Positions 1 to 5,529 of a stretch of DNA of 7,150 nucleotides are shown one piece after another (position 1 is the first letter of the stretch; every line of letters begins with the position of its first letter). The translations under genes and the position numbers were made by a program. Under the pieces are notes generated by a model that was not told the DNA's origin, did no database searches, and saw only the letters and a program-made list of their open reading frames with translations. This DNA comes from an uncultured Candidatus Saccharibacteria bacterium (GTDB lineage Bacteria; Patescibacteria; Saccharimonadia; Saccharimonadales; UBA1547): the NCBI GenBank assembly GCA_946480535.1, contig CAMLKA010000037.1, positions 1-7,150 of the forward strand, in the 5' to 3' direction.

Positions 1-13
1 TTATATAGCAAAC

Positions 14-31
14 CTGTGAGATATTTCACAG
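14..31. promoter_or_regulatory. CRP/FNR-like palindromic operator candidate
   Basis: CTGTGA-N6-TCACAG is a perfect 6+6 inverted repeat. It contains TGTGA-N6-TCACA, which is the E. coli CRP consensus. Its centre is at 22.5. If TACTAT (52-57) is the -10 of the following gene, transcription would start near 64 and the site would sit at about -41.5, the class II activator position. The regulator is inferred; no CRP-family gene is in the window. The alternative is the hairpin of a terminator for an upstream gene, but no T-tract follows on either strand. Confidence 0.45.
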
Positions 32-51
32 AGTTAAAAAACATTCAGTCG

Positions 52-76
52 TACTATCAATACATAAAATAAGGAG
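52..76 (+). promoter_or_regulatory. Candidate -10 box and ribosome binding site of the small membrane protein gene
   Basis: TACTAT (52-57) is the best -10 candidate. No good -35 lies 16-18 bp upstream, which would suit an activator-dependent promoter. AAGGAG (71-76) is a strong Shine-Dalgarno site 6 nt before the ATG at 83 and fixes that start. A second AT-rich hexamer, TAAAAT (65-70), would begin transcription after the ribosome site, so it is less likely. Confidence 0.45.
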
Positions 77-82
77 ATTTAC

Positions 83-340
83 ATGGCAGATCGAGTATAT
101 ACAACAAACCGCGGAGCCTCAGCAGTAGCATGGATAGCACTTGTCGTCGCAATTGTTGCACTTGTTATTGCTTGGATGGCATATAACCGCACCGGTGCGG
201 ACCTTGAGGATCAGATTAAAACTCAGGTAGAGCAGAGCCTTCAAGCAGCCGAAGAGGCCACCCAGGGCGCCAGCGATGCAATCGATGCAGGCCCTGACGG
301 CGTTGATGAAGACGACACCGATGTAAATACAGCACAATAG
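83..340 (+). CDS. Small single-pass membrane protein with acidic C-terminal tail
   Basis: The product has 85 residues. Residues 1-12 are short and polar with two arginines. Residues about 13-34 form one very hydrophobic segment rich in Ala, Val and Ile and ending at Trp31-Met-Ala-Tyr. Residues about 38-64 look like an amphipathic, Gln/Glu/Ala-rich helix. The last 20 residues are strongly acidic (Asp/Glu), ending in a polar tail. By the positive-inside rule the tail probably faces outward. Small proteins of this plan are common in Saccharibacteria, in my recollection, but I know of no assigned function. The start is fixed by AAGGAG 6 nt upstream and the stop is TAG. The gene is a single-gene transcription unit: a palindromic operator candidate lies upstream and a strong terminator downstream. 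It could be a scaffold or a partner of an envelope complex, but nothing shows that. Confidence 0.82.
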   Translation: MADRVYTTNRGASAVAWIALVVAIVALVIAWMAYNRTGADLEDQIKTQVEQSLQAAEEATQGASDAIDAGPDGVDEDDTDVNTAQ

Positions 341-362
341 CCTTCTATAAGCGCTGTGAAAT

Positions 363-389
363 AAAGCGCCGGAATACCCCGGCGCTTTT
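363..389 (+). terminator. Rho-independent terminator of the small membrane protein gene
   Basis: A perfect 10-bp stem (363-372 with 379-388, AAAGCGCCGG / CCGGCGCTTT) encloses the six-base loop AATACC. Its 3' arm ends in TTTT, followed by C. It lies 23 bp after the TAG stop and separates this gene from the pilin gene at 440. Confidence 0.88.
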
Positions 390-424
390 CGTGATGTACA
401 GATTCATCGTTACCATGCTGCTTG

Positions 425-433
425 TGCTAAAAT
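425..433 (+). promoter_or_regulatory. Extended -10 promoter of the pilin-NHL gene (leaderless)
   Basis: TGC-TAAAAT is an extended -10 element (TGn plus hexamer at 428-433). Only six bases separate it from the ATG at 440, so transcription should start at or next to the start codon. No Shine-Dalgarno sequence is present upstream. The -35 region is weak (TTCATC at 404-409, 18-bp spacer), which an extended -10 can compensate. Confidence 0.6.
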
Positions 434-439
434 CTGAAT

Positions 440-1717
440 ATGAATAAAAGAACTGGCTTCACTATCGTCGAACTATTAATTGTTATCGTAGTGATTGCGA
501 TTCTTGCCGCTATCACCATCGTTGCGTATAACGGTATCTCGAACAGGGCAAAAGAGGCGTCCATTAAATCTGACCTGCGCGGCTCAATTGCGCAACTTGA
601 AAATGAAAACACAACGCTTGGGGTATACCCGGTGGATAGCACAGCAGCTAATCAAGGCCAGGGGCTCAAAGTGAGCAGCACAACGACACTCCAGTACACC
701 CTCACTCCTTACGGCTACTGCATGACCGCAACGGCGACGGGCGTACCAAGCTACGTCGTTCGCTCGAACACTAAGGAAGTGACTACTGGAGATTGTAACG
801 CTACAACTACCACGCTTTCTGGCTCTGGGGCCTTTGCCTACCAAGAGGGAAGCAGCTCAACGGCACAATTCCAATCACCATGGGGAGTAGCCGTTGGCGC
901 CAATGACGTCACCTACATTACCGATGGCGGAGGACTTGGGTCACGCATTCGCGCCATCGCTGCCGATGGCACCTCATCGTTCATTGCCGGAACCTCAACC
1001 AATGCATTCCAGAACGGCACAGGTGCTGGCGCACAATTTAATTACCCTCGTGGACTTGCTATTAATAAAACCACCGGAAACCTCTACGTTGCCGACAGTG
1101 GCAACCACCGTATTCGTATGGTGACTCCAGCAGGAGTTGTATCGACCGTCGCCGGAACGGGAGTTAATGGATTCAATGACGGCGCCGCCGGGTCTGCACA
1201 ATTCAGCTTTCCAAATGGTGTAGCTGTTGGTGCGGACGGGACATTGTATATCGCCGACAGTGGCTCCAATCGTCGTATTCGTACCATCTCTCCATCAGGA
1301 ACCGTGTCAACACTTGCTGGTGCAACCGCAGGGACGTTTGGATGCTTTAACGGCGACCCTGCGCTCGATAGTGCGGGTAACATATATGTAGCCGACGCAT
1401 GTCATGAACAAATTAAGAAGATTACCCCAGCCGGCGTAGTTTCGGTCGTCGCGGGAGTTCTTAGCACCCAAGGATACGTCGACGGCGCGGCCGCTTCAGC
1501 ACGATTCGACAATCCATCAAACATCATTGTTGATAAATATGGCACCCTCTACGTTTCAGAAATTGATGGGGGCCGCATTCGTAAAATAACTACCACTGGC
1601 ACAGTATCGACCGTCGCCACCGGACTTTCATGGCCATACGGACTCGACATCAACAGCCAAGGCGCGTTGATTCTTGGTGACTCAGAAAGTTACCGCGTAA
1701 AGAAGATCACGTTCTAG
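440..1717 (+). CDS. Type IV prepilin-like protein fused to a six-bladed NHL beta-propeller
   Basis: The product has 425 residues. Residues 1-6 (MNKRTG) are a short basic leader ending in Gly, then FTIVE: the prepilin peptidase site with N-methylated Phe as +1 and Glu at +5. Residues 7-30 are the hydrophobic pilin helix. The pilin head continues to about residue 120, with Cys94 and Cys119 probably forming the C-terminal disulfide loop. From about 128 to 425 there are NHL-type repeats with recurring G-SAQF--P-GVAV, LYVADSGNHRIR and G-VSTVAG motifs. They form six blades, the fourth short and the last a half-blade that may close the ring. Known biology: such prepilins are processed at the membrane and built into pili or stay as minor pilins, and NHL propellers bind protein, RNA or glycan. 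A surface adhesin or sensor carried on a pilus is my inference. The start is supported by the -10 box six bases upstream. The 3' end overlaps a convergent hydrolase gene by 11 bp. Confidence 0.9.
   Translation: MNKRTGFTIVELLIVIVVIAILAAITIVAYNGISNRAKEASIKSDLRGSIAQLENENTTLGVYPVDSTAANQGQGLKVSSTTTLQYTLTPYGYCMTATATGVPSYVVRSNTKEVTTGDCNATTTTLSGSGAFAYQEGSSSTAQFQSPWGVAVGANDVTYITDGGGLGSRIRAIAADGTSSFIAGTSTNAFQNGTGAGAQFNYPRGLAINKTTGNLYVADSGNHRIRMVTPAGVVSTVAGTGVNGFNDGAAGSAQFSFPNGVAVGADGTLYIADSGSNRRIRTISPSGTVSTLAGATAGTFGCFNGDPALDSAGNIYVADACHEQIKKITPAGVVSVVAGVLSTQGYVDGAAASARFDNPSNIIVDKYGTLYVSEIDGGRIRKITTTGTVSTVATGLSWPYGLDINSQGALILGDSESYRVKKITF
821..1714 (+). repeat. NHL repeat array (six blades)
   Basis: Protein-level repeats by residue: blade 1 about 128-184, blade 2 185-239, blade 3 240-294, blade 4 295-339, blade 5 340-395, half-blade 6 396-425. 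Full units are about 55 residues. Blade 4 is about 10 residues shorter, lacks the AQF-P-GVAV segment, and carries Cys302 and Cys321, the only cysteines in the propeller. Nucleotide identity between units is degenerate, so the array is old and not a recent tandem expansion. Confidence 0.82.
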
Positions 1718-2339
1718 TAAGACCTTCGAGTGATCGCTGCAATTCTAAAATAATCTCAAGAAGCTCAGGGAACGAACCGTCTTTCGACATATCTCCGGTA
1801 TCAGTAAAATGTCCGTAGTTATGAAATTCATGATAAGGGACATCGGGGAAAATATCTCGTAAATGTTTTACCGTGTCTTGAATACGAGGGCCGTCATTAT
1901 CAGAATTAAGGATCGTAAGGCTTCGCACACGCGCAAGCAGTTCCGGCTGCAGGTCAAAATCGGTCATACCATTGAGAAGCTCGACATCAAGAGGGTGCTC
2001 GGGAGTAAAACGATCGCCGAGCGAAGGTGCAACCAGTATCACGTGCCCCACAGAAACATCGGAGTGCTCAGTCAACCATTGGAGAATAAACCCAGCGCCC
2101 ATACTGTGACCCACGAGAAGCGTGTCGGGAGTGAGGGTGTATTGTTCGAACGTCTTACTCCAAACCTTGTAGTCGGGCTGCCATGCGTTCATCATTTCGG
2201 GTGTCTGTACCGAGATACCCGCGAGCTGCAACTCCTTTTGAAGCCATGGCAGCCAAATTTGATTACTTGTTGATGGTTTACTTCGATCGAAATACGTTGC
2301 TTTGCTTGGTTTTCCGTGAACAATAATAGCGCTAGTCAT
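1707..2339 (-). CDS. RBBP9/YdeN-like alpha/beta serine hydrolase
   Basis: The product has 210 residues from the ATG at 2339. The N-terminus reads TSAIIVHGK, the first strand and the HG oxyanion loop. The nucleophile elbow is GHSMG with Ser79. The acid is in SDNDGP (Asp147 or Asp149), and the His is in YGHF (His177). The length and the three motifs fit the small RBBP9/YdeN (Ser_hydrolase, PF06821) family, cytoplasmic hydrolases of uncertain natural substrate. An in-frame GTG at 2345 is possible, but it lies only two bases after the TATACT -10 box, so transcription would begin downstream of it. The ATG at 2339 is therefore preferred, giving a leaderless mRNA. There is no Shine-Dalgarno site. 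The stop is TGA, inside the 3' end of the pilin-NHL gene (11-bp overlap). It is divergent from the second hydrolase at 2398. The substrate is unknown. Confidence 0.87.
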   Translation of the reverse strand: MTSAIIVHGKPSKATYFDRSKPSTSNQIWLPWLQKELQLAGISVQTPEMMNAWQPDYKVWSKTFEQYTLTPDTLLVGHSMGAGFILQWLTEHSDVSVGHVILVAPSLGDRFTPEHPLDVELLNGMTDFDLQPELLARVRSLTILNSDNDGPRIQDTVKHLRDIFPDVPYHEFHNYGHFTDTGDMSKDGSFPELLEIILELQRSLEGLTRT

Positions 2340-2347
2340 TGGCACTT

Positions 2348-2376
2348 AGTATAGCAGTTTGCCATCTCGCCATAAA
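2348..2376 (-). promoter_or_regulatory. Promoter of the serine hydrolase gene
   Basis: Read on the minus strand: TTTATG (2376-2371), 17-bp spacer, TATACT (2353-2348) preceded by TGC, an extended -10. The ATG at 2339 is eight bases past the -10. The promoter interleaves with the plus-strand promoter at 2359-2386. Confidence 0.65.
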
Positions 2377-2386
2377 CTGGTATACT
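2359..2386 (+). promoter_or_regulatory. Promoter of the cysteine-type hydrolase gene
   Basis: TTGCCA (2359-2364), 16-bp spacer, TATACT (2381-2386) preceded by TGG, an extended -10. The same TTG could be read as a start codon giving 13 extra residues, but it is the -35 box, so the extension is rejected. The mRNA should have a leader of about 4-5 nt before the ATG at 2398. Confidence 0.7.
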
Positions 2387-2397
2387 ATGCCCAACTT

Positions 2398-3216
2398 ATG
2401 TTCAATCCGGAAGTAACACCTAGCCACGAATCAGAGCTGCCGCACGCGTATCTTGTTGCTGGTGGGGGTGGAAGTATTCACACAACCATCCTCCTACGTT
2501 TACTTGCGGCACAGCTTGAATCGCAACACCAGCCATACACCGTTGTTGAAGGCTTAACTGGATATGGCGACGACCTGAGCGTTCGTTACCCAAGCCTTCA
2601 AGTAGAGGATATTTTGGAGCACGCCGAATCTCACGACCGCAAGGTACTTTTTGTTGCGCATTGTATTGGTACCATCGCCGCACTCCGCGCCTTCGAGTCG
2701 CTATCTGCCGATAGGCCCGCAGCACTGACCGCCATTGCGCCGCCACTTCCGTCACCATACCACACGACCAGCACGCCACAGTCGCAAAAGAAGCGTTTTG
2801 AAAACGACACTCGCATGACCGTTATTGGACTAACACCCGGTGCACTGTATCCATCAGAGGAAGTATCTCGACTGGCTGCCATTAGCCCTCGCTACTTTGA
2901 AGAGATCCAAGAAGCTCACGATGTTGATACGCAGCTTCGTCTTCACGTCGAGCAGGGGAGAGCGGCTATCTTTTCAGCGCAACACGACTGGAACACCGAA
3001 TCACCAGCGACCGTTGCACGCTGGCACGACGACTGGCGTCAAAGTGACCGCCACGATTTTATTGAACGAGCACGAATTGTTGAAGACGCGGCCCATGGGC
3101 TTCATCTTTCGCCAATGAGTGGCCGTGAAATTACTCCAGATATAAATGCTGCGTTTCAAAATGCCCAGTTAGCACAGGTAATTGCGACAGGCAACGACCT
3201 CGTCCGCTCACTATAA
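2398..3216 (+). CDS. Alpha/beta-hydrolase-like protein with a cysteine nucleophile
   Basis: The product has 272 residues. After a short polar start, AYLVAGGGGS (17-26) resembles a first strand with a glycine-rich oxyanion loop. VLFVAHCIGTIAALRAF (83-99) is a nucleophile elbow followed by its helix, with Cys89 where most family members have Ser (A-H-C-I-G against G-x-S-x-G). AAIFSAQHDWN (189-199) fits the late strand with the acid, probably Asp197. AAHGLHLSP (231-239) supplies His233 or His236. A Cys-Asp-His triad is known from dienelactone hydrolase and a few other hydrolases. No family assignment is possible by eye, so enzyme activity is inference. Residues about 115-175 form a lid-like insert. 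The stop TAA overlaps the A-run that serves as T-tract for the minus-strand gene downstream. It is divergent from the serine hydrolase, with which it may share regulation. Confidence 0.8.
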   Translation: MFNPEVTPSHESELPHAYLVAGGGGSIHTTILLRLLAAQLESQHQPYTVVEGLTGYGDDLSVRYPSLQVEDILEHAESHDRKVLFVAHCIGTIAALRAFESLSADRPAALTAIAPPLPSPYHTTSTPQSQKKRFENDTRMTVIGLTPGALYPSEEVSRLAAISPRYFEEIQEAHDVDTQLRLHVEQGRAAIFSAQHDWNTESPATVARWHDDWRQSDRHDFIERARIVEDAAHGLHLSPMSGREITPDINAAFQNAQLAQVIATGNDLVRSL

Positions 3217-3272
3217 AAAGAACCCGCAACCCGGGGCGAGCACTCGACGACTTTCGTCGGAGTGTTCGCCCC
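3215..3272 (-). terminator. Terminator of the GC-rich minus-strand gene
   Basis: A long hairpin pairs 3233-3250 with 3254-3272: 18 paired positions, one G-T wobble and one bulge, around the loop CTT. On the minus strand it is followed after 13 bases by TTCTTTTT (complement of 3215-3222). A small competing stem, CCCG/CGGG, lies directly against that T-tract. No T-tract follows on the plus strand, so the direction is mainly minus, though the hairpin may also slow plus-strand transcription from the hydrolase gene. Confidence 0.65.
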
Positions 3273-3306
3273 AGGTACGGGCTTGTTGGTACGACTTTGC
3301 CTCACA

Positions 3307-3335
3307 CCGGGGCGAGCGGCTAGAGCCGCCCCCGG
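3307..3335. other. GC-rich stem-loop over the stop codon of the minus-strand gene
   Basis: CCGGGG (3307-3312) pairs with CCCCGG (3330-3335), and GCGGC (3316-3320) with GCCGC (3325-3329), around the loop TAGA. CGA (3313-3315) is an unpaired internal bulge. The stop codon of the minus gene (3322-3320) lies at the loop. The 5' arm, CCGGGGCGAGC, recurs exactly at 3231-3241. Confidence 0.6.
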
Positions 3336-3664
3336 CTGACAGCACCGCCACTGATGCGAGGAAGCTCCTGGTTCTCGAGTCGGAGGCTTCCGTTCACGAA
3401 GGTAGCGAGCGCGTTCACGATGACCTGCGCCTCGGCCAGCCGCCGGTGCTCATCCGGCCACAACACGTCGGTCGGCTCGTCAGGGTTAAACCCAACACGC
3501 TTCGTGATATCAGGATCCAGGATGCGTCGGTCTGCTAGAGACGCGGCGAGCTGTGCGGTAGCGAGAGCCAGCGCCTGCTTAACGCTTGCCTCCATCGCAG
3601 CGACACGTTCGCCGTGCGTTCGACGCGCCTCTTTGTGCTTTCGCAGTTGAGCTGCAGTAGCCAT
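3320..3664 (-). CDS. Small GC-rich hypothetical protein, mainly helical
   Basis: The product has 114 residues and I do not recognise it. Residues 1-46 are charged and then Ala-rich, consistent with one or two amphipathic helices (basic HKEARRTHGER region, then ALALATAQLAASLA). Residues 47-70 include RRILDPDITKRVGFNPDEP, a more polar loop or strand region. Residues 72-93 look like another helix, and the tail is Gly/Arg-rich. There are no Cys residues, no membrane segment and no signal peptide. The strand is set by GGAGA (3673-3669) just upstream of the ATG, the TTGCAA-N17-CATAAC promoter, and a terminator past the TAG stop. A 60-base sample inside it (3421-3480) is about 72% GC, far above its neighbours, which suggests a separate origin. 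Overlapping plus-strand open frames are shadows. Function unknown. Confidence 0.72.
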   Translation of the reverse strand: MATAAQLRKHKEARRTHGERVAAMEASVKQALALATAQLAASLADRRILDPDITKRVGFNPDEPTDVLWPDEHRRLAEAQVIVNALATFVNGSLRLENQELPRISGGAVSRGRL

Positions 3665-3685
3665 ATGTTCTCCAATTTCAATGTA

Positions 3686-3699
3686 CAGGCAGGTGCCTG
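3686..3699. promoter_or_regulatory. Inverted repeat in the leader of the GC-rich minus-strand gene
   Basis: CAGGCA-GG-TGCCTG is a perfect 6+6 dyad with a two-base centre. It lies just downstream of the predicted minus-strand transcription start (about 3703) and upstream of the ribosome site. The two-base centre is too short for an RNA loop over the full stem, so a DNA operator for a dimeric repressor is more likely than a hairpin. The regulator is unknown. Confidence 0.45.
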
Positions 3700-3709
3700 G
3701 CTTTGATTA

Positions 3710-3738
3710 GTTATGAATGAAAACACCGTTGATTGCAA
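3710..3738 (-). promoter_or_regulatory. Promoter of the GC-rich minus-strand gene
   Basis: On the minus strand: TTGCAA (3738-3733), 17-bp spacer, CATAAC (3715-3710). This gives a leader of about 40 nt containing the CAGGCA dyad and GGAGA. It is back to back with the pilin-FISUMP promoter at 3755-3784. Confidence 0.55.
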
Positions 3739-3754
3739 GCATGAGCAACACTAC

Positions 3755-3784
3755 TTGCCCTCCCATGTACACAAGGCGTATACT
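3755..3784 (+). promoter_or_regulatory. Promoter of the pilin-FISUMP gene
   Basis: TTGCCC (3755-3760), 18-bp spacer, TATACT (3779-3784). Transcription should start near 3791, four bases before the ATG at 3795, with no Shine-Dalgarno site. Because the promoter lies inside the longest open frame (from 3717), it rules out the first 26 codons of that frame. Confidence 0.65.
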
Positions 3785-3794
3785 TAAAACACTT

Positions 3795-4895
3795 ATGCAT
3801 ATGCGCAATCAAGGCTTCACAATTGTTGAACTGCTTATCGTTATAGTAGTAATTGCAATTCTCGCCGCGATAACCATCATTGGTTATAACGGTATTTCAA
3901 ACCGAGCCCGCGACTCTGCTATTCAATCGGATGTCGAGGGATTCGCTAAAGCAATAGAAAATGATAAAACGCTCAACGGCTCCTACCCAGCGTCTGCAGG
4001 TGCAGCAAATAACGGCAAAGGCTTGATATCTGGAAGCGGCAATACCGTTGCTTATAACGTTGATAGTGCTGGCTCGGCATTTTGTTTGCAAGTATCAAGA
4101 ACAGGAAGCCAGTCGTACTTTGCAACACAGTCTAATCTATCACCGCGCACGGGTGTATGTGCGGGGATTATAGGGATAGCAAGTGTCGGTGGAAGCGCCG
4201 TTATGCAAACGGTTACCAATGCAAACTGTTCAACAACGCGCACAAGAGTCGTCGATGCACGAGATGGGCGTACCTATTGGGTGCAGAAACTTTCGGATGG
4301 TAAGTGCTGGATGCTGACAAATCTTGCGTATGCCGGAGGGGGAGGAAATACGTACGGCGACATCAAAACACTTACAAATGGCACGGGTGGATCGCAAACA
4401 TATACTATTGCAAGCTACTACATTCCACCAAACGCCAACCCAACAAGCGAACCAGCCAACCCTTCCACTTCAACGAACGGTGGTACATCAAATCCGCAAT
4501 ATGGCTATTTTTATAACTGGTGCGGCGCAATGGGCGGACAAGCTACTGCCGCCTGCGCAAATGCAACTACCCCCGCGCCAATTGCAGCAACGACCGTTTG
4601 CCCTTCTGGCTGGCGGTTACCTACAGGAAACGGGGGCGAGCTAGCCGCCCTTAATACGAGCGTCAACGCAGGATCCACAACAACTGATTCGGGATTGCTT
4701 ACTAATTGGCTAGGGCATCGCGCCGGGGGATGGTTTAGCGGCTTCTTTAATCAAGATTTTAACGGCATTTACTGGTCTTCCACGCCAAGTAACACCACCG
4801 AAGCATATACTTTATACGCAGACAGCACTTGGATAAACCCTGCCTTTAGCTACAGCAAATCGTATGCGTTTGCCGTGCGGTGTGTCGCTATATAG
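3795..4895 (+). CDS. Type IV prepilin-like protein fused to a FISUMP domain
   Basis: The product has 366 residues from the ATG at 3795 (an in-frame ATG at 3801 is also possible). The leader is MHMRNQG, then FTIVE: a prepilin peptidase site with Glu at +5. Residues 8-31 are the pilin helix and the head runs to about 125, with Cys97 and Cys122 spaced exactly as in the pilin at 440. From about 137 to the end is a FISUMP-type domain (Fibrobacter succinogenes major paralogous domain, TIGR02145/PF09603): VDARDGRTYWVQKLSDGKCW, CPSGWRLPT (269-277), IYWSST (325-330) and a final AFAVRCVAI. Six further Cys (145, 171, 243, 254, 269, 363) may form disulfides outside the cell. The domain is known as a surface-protein module of unclear function. 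A minor pilin displaying it as an adhesin is my inference. The TAG stop overlaps the convergent gene by 8 bp. Confidence 0.9.
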   Translation: MHMRNQGFTIVELLIVIVVIAILAAITIIGYNGISNRARDSAIQSDVEGFAKAIENDKTLNGSYPASAGAANNGKGLISGSGNTVAYNVDSAGSAFCLQVSRTGSQSYFATQSNLSPRTGVCAGIIGIASVGGSAVMQTVTNANCSTTRTRVVDARDGRTYWVQKLSDGKCWMLTNLAYAGGGGNTYGDIKTLTNGTGGSQTYTIASYYIPPNANPTSEPANPSTSTNGGTSNPQYGYFYNWCGAMGGQATAACANATTPAPIAATTVCPSGWRLPTGNGGELAALNTSVNAGSTTTDSGLLTNWLGHRAGGWFSGFFNQDFNGIYWSSTPSNTTEAYTLYADSTWINPAFSYSKSYAFAVRCVAI

Positions 4896-5529
4896 GAGCG
4901 CGCGAATCCTCGCGACTAATAATAGGCGCTTTTTGAATATATAAATTATCTTCAAGAACCTGCAGTGCAGCAAGCGCAACTTCTTCTCTTCCAACAAATA
5001 ACTTTGTTGGCCCGTGCTCTTTTAAAGAAAAGGGGGCTGCTGCAACATTCAGCAGCTTCAATACTCTCAGTACTGTCCAGTCGAGACCACTTGCTTGCAA
5101 AATTTCTACATGCCGACGCCCATCGCTTACTCGAGCAGGATCAATATGCTCAATACCAAAATTTAAAAAACGATCAGCCAGCGTAATATGATCGCCAGGG
5201 AAACGGACCCCCGTTCCAGTGAGGCTCACAATCCTTTTTATATTCTTTCTACACATAACCTCGACAAGCATCTGAATAGCAGATGTCTGAACAGTAGCCG
5301 CCGAGCCTTTAACGTGACCGATGAAACTTGCGACAGCATCCTGACCGTCAAGCAAAGCCTCCACATGAGCTTGATTCGTCGCGTCGCAGGTTATTTCTGT
5401 TAAATTGGGGTGGAAAGGTAGGGTGCCGCTACGAAAACTTCCCGCTCGTACGGTGTGGCCGGCGGCAAGTGCAGCCGCAACAAAGGCTCTCCCCGTACGA
5501 CCATTCGCGGCGACGACAGCAATATTCAT
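4888..5529 (-). CDS. NAD(P)-binding Rossmann protein, NmrA/atypical SDR-like
   Basis: The product has 213 residues. MNIAVVAANGRTGRAFVAAAL (1-21) is the first strand, dinucleotide loop (A-N-G-x-T-G, a variant of G-A-T-G-x-x-G) and helix of the NAD(P)H-binding family (PF13460). Other family-like segments are CDAT (48-51), DAVASFIG (64-71), RIVSLTGTGV (99-108), SGLDWTVLR (147-155) and GREEVALAALQVLED (180-194), matching the usual REDVA helix. No YxxxK pair stands out, as in many NmrA-like members, so it may be a redox sensor or reductase with unknown substrate. The start is supported by TGT-TAAAAT ending seven bases before the ATG, which implies a leaderless mRNA. The TAG stop lies inside the pilin-FISUMP gene. 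A small CGCGA/TCGCG hairpin (4901-4914) sits near its 3' end. Confidence 0.85.
   Translation of the reverse strand: MNIAVVAANGRTGRAFVAAALAAGHTVRAGSFRSGTLPFHPNLTEITCDATNQAHVEALLDGQDAVASFIGHVKGSAATVQTSAIQMLVEVMCRKNIKRIVSLTGTGVRFPGDHITLADRFLNFGIEHIDPARVSDGRRHVEILQASGLDWTVLRVLKLLNVAAAPFSLKEHGPTKLFVGREEVALAALQVLEDNLYIQKAPIISREDSRAPI

Follow-up and report, generated by a model that had tools for sequence, protein, structure and literature searches.

Type IV pili of Saccharibacteria have been studied in Nanosynbacter lyticus TM7x, which is reported to have 12 pilins, of which two bear extra domains at the C-terminus (PMC12206443). Its minor pilin PilX2 ends in a seven-bladed RCC1 propeller and is proposed to be a pilus adhesin; deletion of the gene lowered the fraction of bound host cells from ~10.6% to 4.6% (PMC12206443). 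More broadly, 264 architectures of modular pilins have been counted in InterPro, among the described examples the minor pilin PilB of Streptococcus sanguinis, whose vWA module, grafted via a short loop, is an adhesin that binds host proteins, and the propeller of PilY1/PilC has been proposed to be presented at the type IV pilus tip (PMC8179133). Here, we describe a gene on the first 7,150 nucleotides (the window) of contig CAMLKA010000037.1 from an uncultured Candidatus Saccharibacteria bacterium, which by its own sequence tests encodes a type IV prepilin fused to an NHL beta-propeller. It occupies 440..1717 on the + strand, stop codon included, and encodes 425 residues.

The protein begins with a class III (prepilin) leader, MNKRTG (residues 1-6; 440..457, +), with predicted cleavage after Gly6 and scores above cut-off for both PF07963 and TIGR02532, followed by the long N-terminal pilin helix (residues 7-60; 458..619, +), which the AlphaFold2 model places at residues 9-60 and which carries a Glu at mature position 5. 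A leader ending in Gly, a hydrophobic helix and a Glu at +5, the sequence hallmarks of type IV prepilins, are thus all present, and G6, F7 and E11 are invariant across 14 aligned fusions. In the model and the alignment, the small pilin head (residues 61-119; 620..796, +) forms a small sheet with strands 83-89, 92-99, 102-108 and 114-116 and contains the cysteine pair C94-C119, which is kept in 65 of 65 prepilin-NHL fusions. A very short linker of a few residues leads into the NHL propeller (residues 120-425; 797..1714, +), whose repeats score 98.2 bits with PF01436 against a cut-off of 20. The AlphaFold2 model (predicted local distance difference test, pLDDT, 92; predicted template modelling score, pTM, 0.87) closes into six blades, the sixth completed by strand 122-127, and the modelled propeller superposes end to end on Pizza6 at ~1.7 A. 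Sequence, profiles and structure prediction therefore bear out the original prediction of a prepilin module joined without a break to a six-blade NHL propeller, which in the model closes. With its pilin module, short linker and non-pilus-specific domain, the protein also has the architecture of the modular pilins of Raynaud et al. 2021. Blade 4 contains two cysteines, C302 and C321 (window positions 1343-1402), that are common to the relatives P0009 and P0090 and are not usual residues of the family; they may perhaps form a lineage-specific disulfide.

Comparing the fusion with the described systems showed the closest likeness to PilX2, a saccharibacterial minor pilin that likewise ends in a beta-propeller. 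PilX2, however, has seven RCC1 blades and no predicted PilD site, whereas the NHL pilin has six NHL blades and a canonical leader, and pilX2 belongs to a five-gene pilin cluster, whereas no pilus machinery was found around the NHL pilin gene, which has one other modular pilin 2 kb away. PilB (vWA) and PilC (lectin) of S. sanguinis share with the NHL pilin a small pilin module bearing a bulky, unrelated binding module over a short linker, but their second module is not NHL. PilY1/PilC (beta-propeller IPR008707) resembles it in having a propeller with proposed tip display, but PilY1 is not a pilin and its propeller belongs to another family; the PilC/PilY1 beta-propeller domain was absent from the Pfam matches of the NHL pilin at E <= 0.1. 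PknD, NHLRC2 and TRIM71 have the same six-bladed NHL fold, not joined to a pilin. Because repeat family and blade number differ and a PilC/PilY1 domain is missing, the NHL pilin falls outside both groups; by analogy, it may work as PilX2 does, with PilY1 a more distant parallel. Modular pilins and the RCC1-propeller PilX2 are known already; the new element is a pilin whose propeller is of another kind. The main text of PMC8179133 does not name NHL, and a prepilin-NHL entry may be among its 264 architectures.

The fusion recurs in independent genomes. At 90% identity, the protein clusters with one other member, and the cluster is found on four contigs, the longest of 66,037 bases. The homologue search matched 3851 proteins, of which the best 120 listed were used; among the 119 listed besides the protein itself, 13 span both the pilin part and the propeller (93-100% of the protein, 37-61% identity), the nearest relative among the matches listed having 61% identity. 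In a scan of genome contigs in which 80 of 402 relatives were kept, a match running from the pilin into the propeller was found at 8 of the 80 loci (L001-L006, L012 and L077). Three of these loci belong to one genome, one lies in Candidatus Saccharibacteria bacterium TM7i, whose chromosome is complete, and five, the TM7i locus among them, are labelled Saccharibacteria. In L005, the motif reads GLTIVE in place of GFTIVE and is missed by the prepilin motif pattern. L003, from the 3.5 Mb metagenome-assembled genome (MAG) Bu91, was counted among the eight and excluded from the distribution; by eye, its contig seems chimeric, positions 1-5000 being unlike the Saccharibacteria-like pilin part at 5800-11314. 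Since full-length relatives exist in other genomes, one of them complete, and the protein's own cluster lies on four contigs, we rejected an assembly artefact joining two genes, to which we assign a negligible probability. The claim of a real fusion in an epibiont setting is supported, the relatives being mostly from Saccharibacteria.

A fusion profile run against 392 genomes of TM7i's class matched ten at E <= 1e-45, eight of which have the fusion. In G001, G002, G003, G006, G059, G101 and G375 the alignment takes in the pilin part, and in G065 a frame in L087 has the prepilin motif together with NHL; the match in G373 is an 800-residue NHL protein and not a fusion. At most four candidates were scored per genome and genome completeness was not given, so that eight of 392 is a lower bound. 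The prepilin-NHL architecture is hence uncommon in TM7i's class, with at least 8 of the 392 sampled genomes having it, and some genomes have several such pilins (at least three in G003, at least two in G002). Plasmid records gave 25 matches to the protein; none extends over 80% of its length, and all of the 20 matches listed begin at residue 78 or later. The window gave no megablast match to phage sequences.

Taken with the precedents of PilX2 and of S. sanguinis PilB, these data make it rather likely, in our view, that the gene product is a modular minor pilin that displays its NHL propeller at the tip of a type IV pilus and tethers the host or another surface. Prepilin peptidase would cleave after Gly6 and the mature subunit would join the pilus, with the propeller at the tip because the shaft would offer little room for so bulky a domain. 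There, it would bind a ligand on the surface of the host bacterium, or on another surface, and this binding would tether the pilus to the host; the NHL pilin would be one of several binding-type modules on related pilin carriers in these genomes. Of the two roles first put forward, adhesin or sensor, the adhesin is favoured by analogy, since normal host binding in another Saccharibacterium requires PilX2, a minor pilin that also bears a propeller. Nothing that we found supports a sensor. The machinery that such a pilin would use is present in relatives: a prepilin peptidase match was found in eight of nine surveyed genomes with the fusion (G006 being the exception), and PilB/PilT-type ATPases in all nine. 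In a wider set of ten relatives (the profile-matching genomes without G373 but with G166, and G004 in addition), the counts were nine and ten, respectively.

Several observations weigh against this proposal. No pilus machinery was found among the ten window open reading frames scanned, the only pilus-related gene nearby being a second modular pilin, and comparison of 14 fusion loci, five of them with flanks of ~1.5 kb or less, revealed no conserved neighbours beyond pilins; one further neighbour cluster occurs in three of the 14, two of these being the same gene in overlapping loci. With the fusion in only eight of 392 class genomes, the NHL pilin cannot be a general requirement. The literature found, with partial coverage, holds no ligand, localisation or mutant data on any NHL pilin. 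In G166, a 441-residue NHL protein (L089:1381-2706) has a secretion-type N-terminus, a C-terminal hydrophobic segment and no pilin; since a similar propeller is apparently displayed there without one, the NHL propeller is not tied to pili, and the G166 protein would represent another way of displaying it. Finally, per-column entropy over the 65 fusions (blade 1 partly gapped) placed the repeatedly variable positions in the b-c loops and on either side of the beginning of strand a, sites that in propellers generally lie on one face, and much the same profile was obtained for 105 non-pilin NHL proteins (1197 repeat units, compared with 385 in the fusions). As the control behaves alike, the variable face is not pilin-specific, and we rejected it as a sign of adhesion; it is a property of the NHL family at large.

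The missing local machinery, the large size of the C-terminal module and the G166 propeller, which by eye is apparently displayed by its hydrophobic segment without a pilin, would also suit a protein whose pilin module is a membrane anchor only and which stays in the cell membrane, outside the pilus, to act at the surface as receptor, scaffold or sensor. The leader and helix, however, are of the full assembly type, the carrier is common to many pilins, relatives possess pilus machinery, and a Pfam scan found the propeller only and no signalling domain, and we regard a mere anchor as rather unlikely. An enzyme of lactonase or lyase type carried on the pilus has a small chance at best: the SGL/SMP-30 profile scores just above its cut-off (31.5 versus 26.3 bits) and the Vgb_lyase profile matches, but the top SGL match is confined to residues 199-291, a pattern that NHL repeats would be expected to give, and the Vgb_lyase score of 35.6 bits lies below the cut-off of 50, so that the protein does not qualify as a Virginiamycin B lyase.

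The proposed host-binding minor pilin belongs to a larger set of proteins built on related carriers. Searching with residues 1-122 retrieved 5668 proteins at E <= 0.001, and modules were labelled on the best 120 listed by our own NHL profile and precomputed Pfam domains. NHL was found on 62 carriers, CBM_4_9 on eight, FISUMP on five, FGE and LRR_5 on three each, LamG on two, and RCC1, PA14, F5/8 and a sortilin propeller on one each; 33 had no named module. Exactly two cysteines are present in the first 122 residues of 146 of 162 carriers. In TM7i, 21 carrier match places correspond to 20 genes, 19 of which were recovered by motif (G001:C1:246523 was missed), and 11 of these 19 encode at least 230 residues. 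Ten of the 11 have a named module, in six classes: one NHL, two RCC1, four FISUMP (one barely above cut-off), one LRR, one FGE and one CBM. This compares with the two pilins with added domains reported for TM7x, TM7i having been counted by other methods. An RCC1-pilin profile built from five sequences matched 57 of the 392 genomes at E <= 1e-45; in nine of them the listed alignment starts in the first eight positions, that is, in the pilin part, and many of the other matches are long frames without a pilin. The prepilin-NHL fusion is therefore not singular, and is one architecture of a larger family of modular pilins. Some of the sister modules (CBM_4_9, LamG, PA14, F5/8) are general carbohydrate-binding types, and Saccharibacteria pili also serve twitching motility (PMC12206443). 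Both points would fit an NHL pilin whose target is not a host cell and which would aid DNA uptake or biofilm attachment by binding extracellular DNA, exopolysaccharide or another surface, a reading that we consider unlikely. FGE-type folds are known targets of diversity-generating retroelements, and modules of this type are present on the related carrier in P0155, P0177, P0215 and L034:764-1957.

Closely similar carriers can bear different modules: P0228, a short NHL protein of 247 residues, shares 82% carrier identity with P0177 (FGE) and 75% with P0184 (FISUMP). We built a quick carrier tree of 122 columns from 162 carriers picked for closeness to the NHL pilin, P0152 of the initial 163 having been dropped for want of the motif. 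The NHL label required 22 changes on this tree, compared with a mean of 53.8 and a minimum of 40 in 200 shuffles, and the ten named module classes over 112 carriers required 25, compared with a shuffled mean of 36.8 and minimum of 34. Because the NHL label changes far less often than in the shuffles, modules mostly stay with related carriers, and free module exchange in its strong form finds no support. After collapsing branches below Shimodaira-Hasegawa-like approximate likelihood ratio test (SH-aLRT) values of 80, 90 and 95, at least 15, 7 and 3 NHL changes remained, respectively. We take these sequence comparisons as evidence for gain, loss or exchange of modules on more than one occasion, with no particular count implied. 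Carriers did not look homogenised within genomes: those with different modules had a mean identity of 39.5% within a genome (49 pairs) and 39.9% between genomes (117 pairs), and those with the same module 43.0% (13 pairs) and 42.5% (52 pairs), respectively.

Related carriers also occur in other named bacteria. In Nesterenkonia muleiensis, a named strain of the actinobacterial phylum that hosts cultured Saccharibacteria, an RCC1-propeller pilin (L011:9902-11257) has a carrier 46% identical to that of the window's NHL pilin and adjoins frames that look by eye integrase-like and TraG/VirD4-like; a mobile origin or transfer is possible. Pilins on related carriers were likewise seen in Microbacterium (L061:9926-10921, with a CBM_4_9 match slightly below cut-off) and Arthrobacter records (L027:9965-10489).

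The window itself holds a second modular prepilin, a FISUMP (Fib_succ_major) module on a related carrier (3801..4895, +); it follows the NHL pilin gene ~2 kb downstream, with unrelated frames between. Alternative in-frame starts are at 3795, 3765 and 3717. Its TIGR02145 score is 56.5 bits (cut-off 41.65), and its carrier is 49% identical to residues 1-122 of the NHL pilin over 96% (E 3.3e-23). In an AlphaFold2 model based on nine sequences, the FISUMP part has pLDDT mostly below 50, and the carrier 73-86 past the first residues. Of eight FISUMP pilins compared, the highest identity (67%) was to one in MAG 7_bin.72 (L014, the genome G002 of TM7i's class). We found no report of FISUMP pilins in the literature, as far as our partial coverage goes. 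The window also encodes an Hsp20 that shares 63% identity with an Hsp20 of the Saccharibacteria genome UBA6209 (G006); ~1.2 kb from the latter lies a sequence weakly related (31%) to the 85-residue membrane protein of the window. These similarities, like the titles of five of the eight fusion loci, point indirectly to Saccharibacteria as the source of the window. Scans of the window with Rfam (gathering threshold) and for transfer RNAs gave no match. Minus-10-like boxes lie at 428-440, 2381-2398 and 3779-3795, each directly 5' of an ATG, and the three genes behind them have no obvious ribosome-binding site, whereas the genes at 83 and 6774 have clear ones; from their sequence, these three look as if their transcripts were leaderless.

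How episymbiotic Saccharibacteria choose and hold their hosts is an open question, and in one oral strain host binding has been shown to benefit from a propeller pilin (PMC12206443). The NHL pilin is probably one of several devices on the pilus by which a host is gripped, and the repertoire, with ten pilins carrying named modules in TM7i, is a more unusual point than the single NHL fusion. We tentatively propose, as a possibility that we hold with less confidence than the pilin's own assignment, that some Saccharibacteria recognise hosts by a repertoire of pilus-tip modules (NHL and RCC1 propellers, FISUMP/FGE and carbohydrate-binding domains) on a conserved carrier present in numerous dispersed copies, where gain, loss and exchange of modules would set which bacteria are held, the NHL pilin being one key. 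The NHL propeller pilin and the TM7i module set thereby provide a concrete list of candidate host-recognition proteins.
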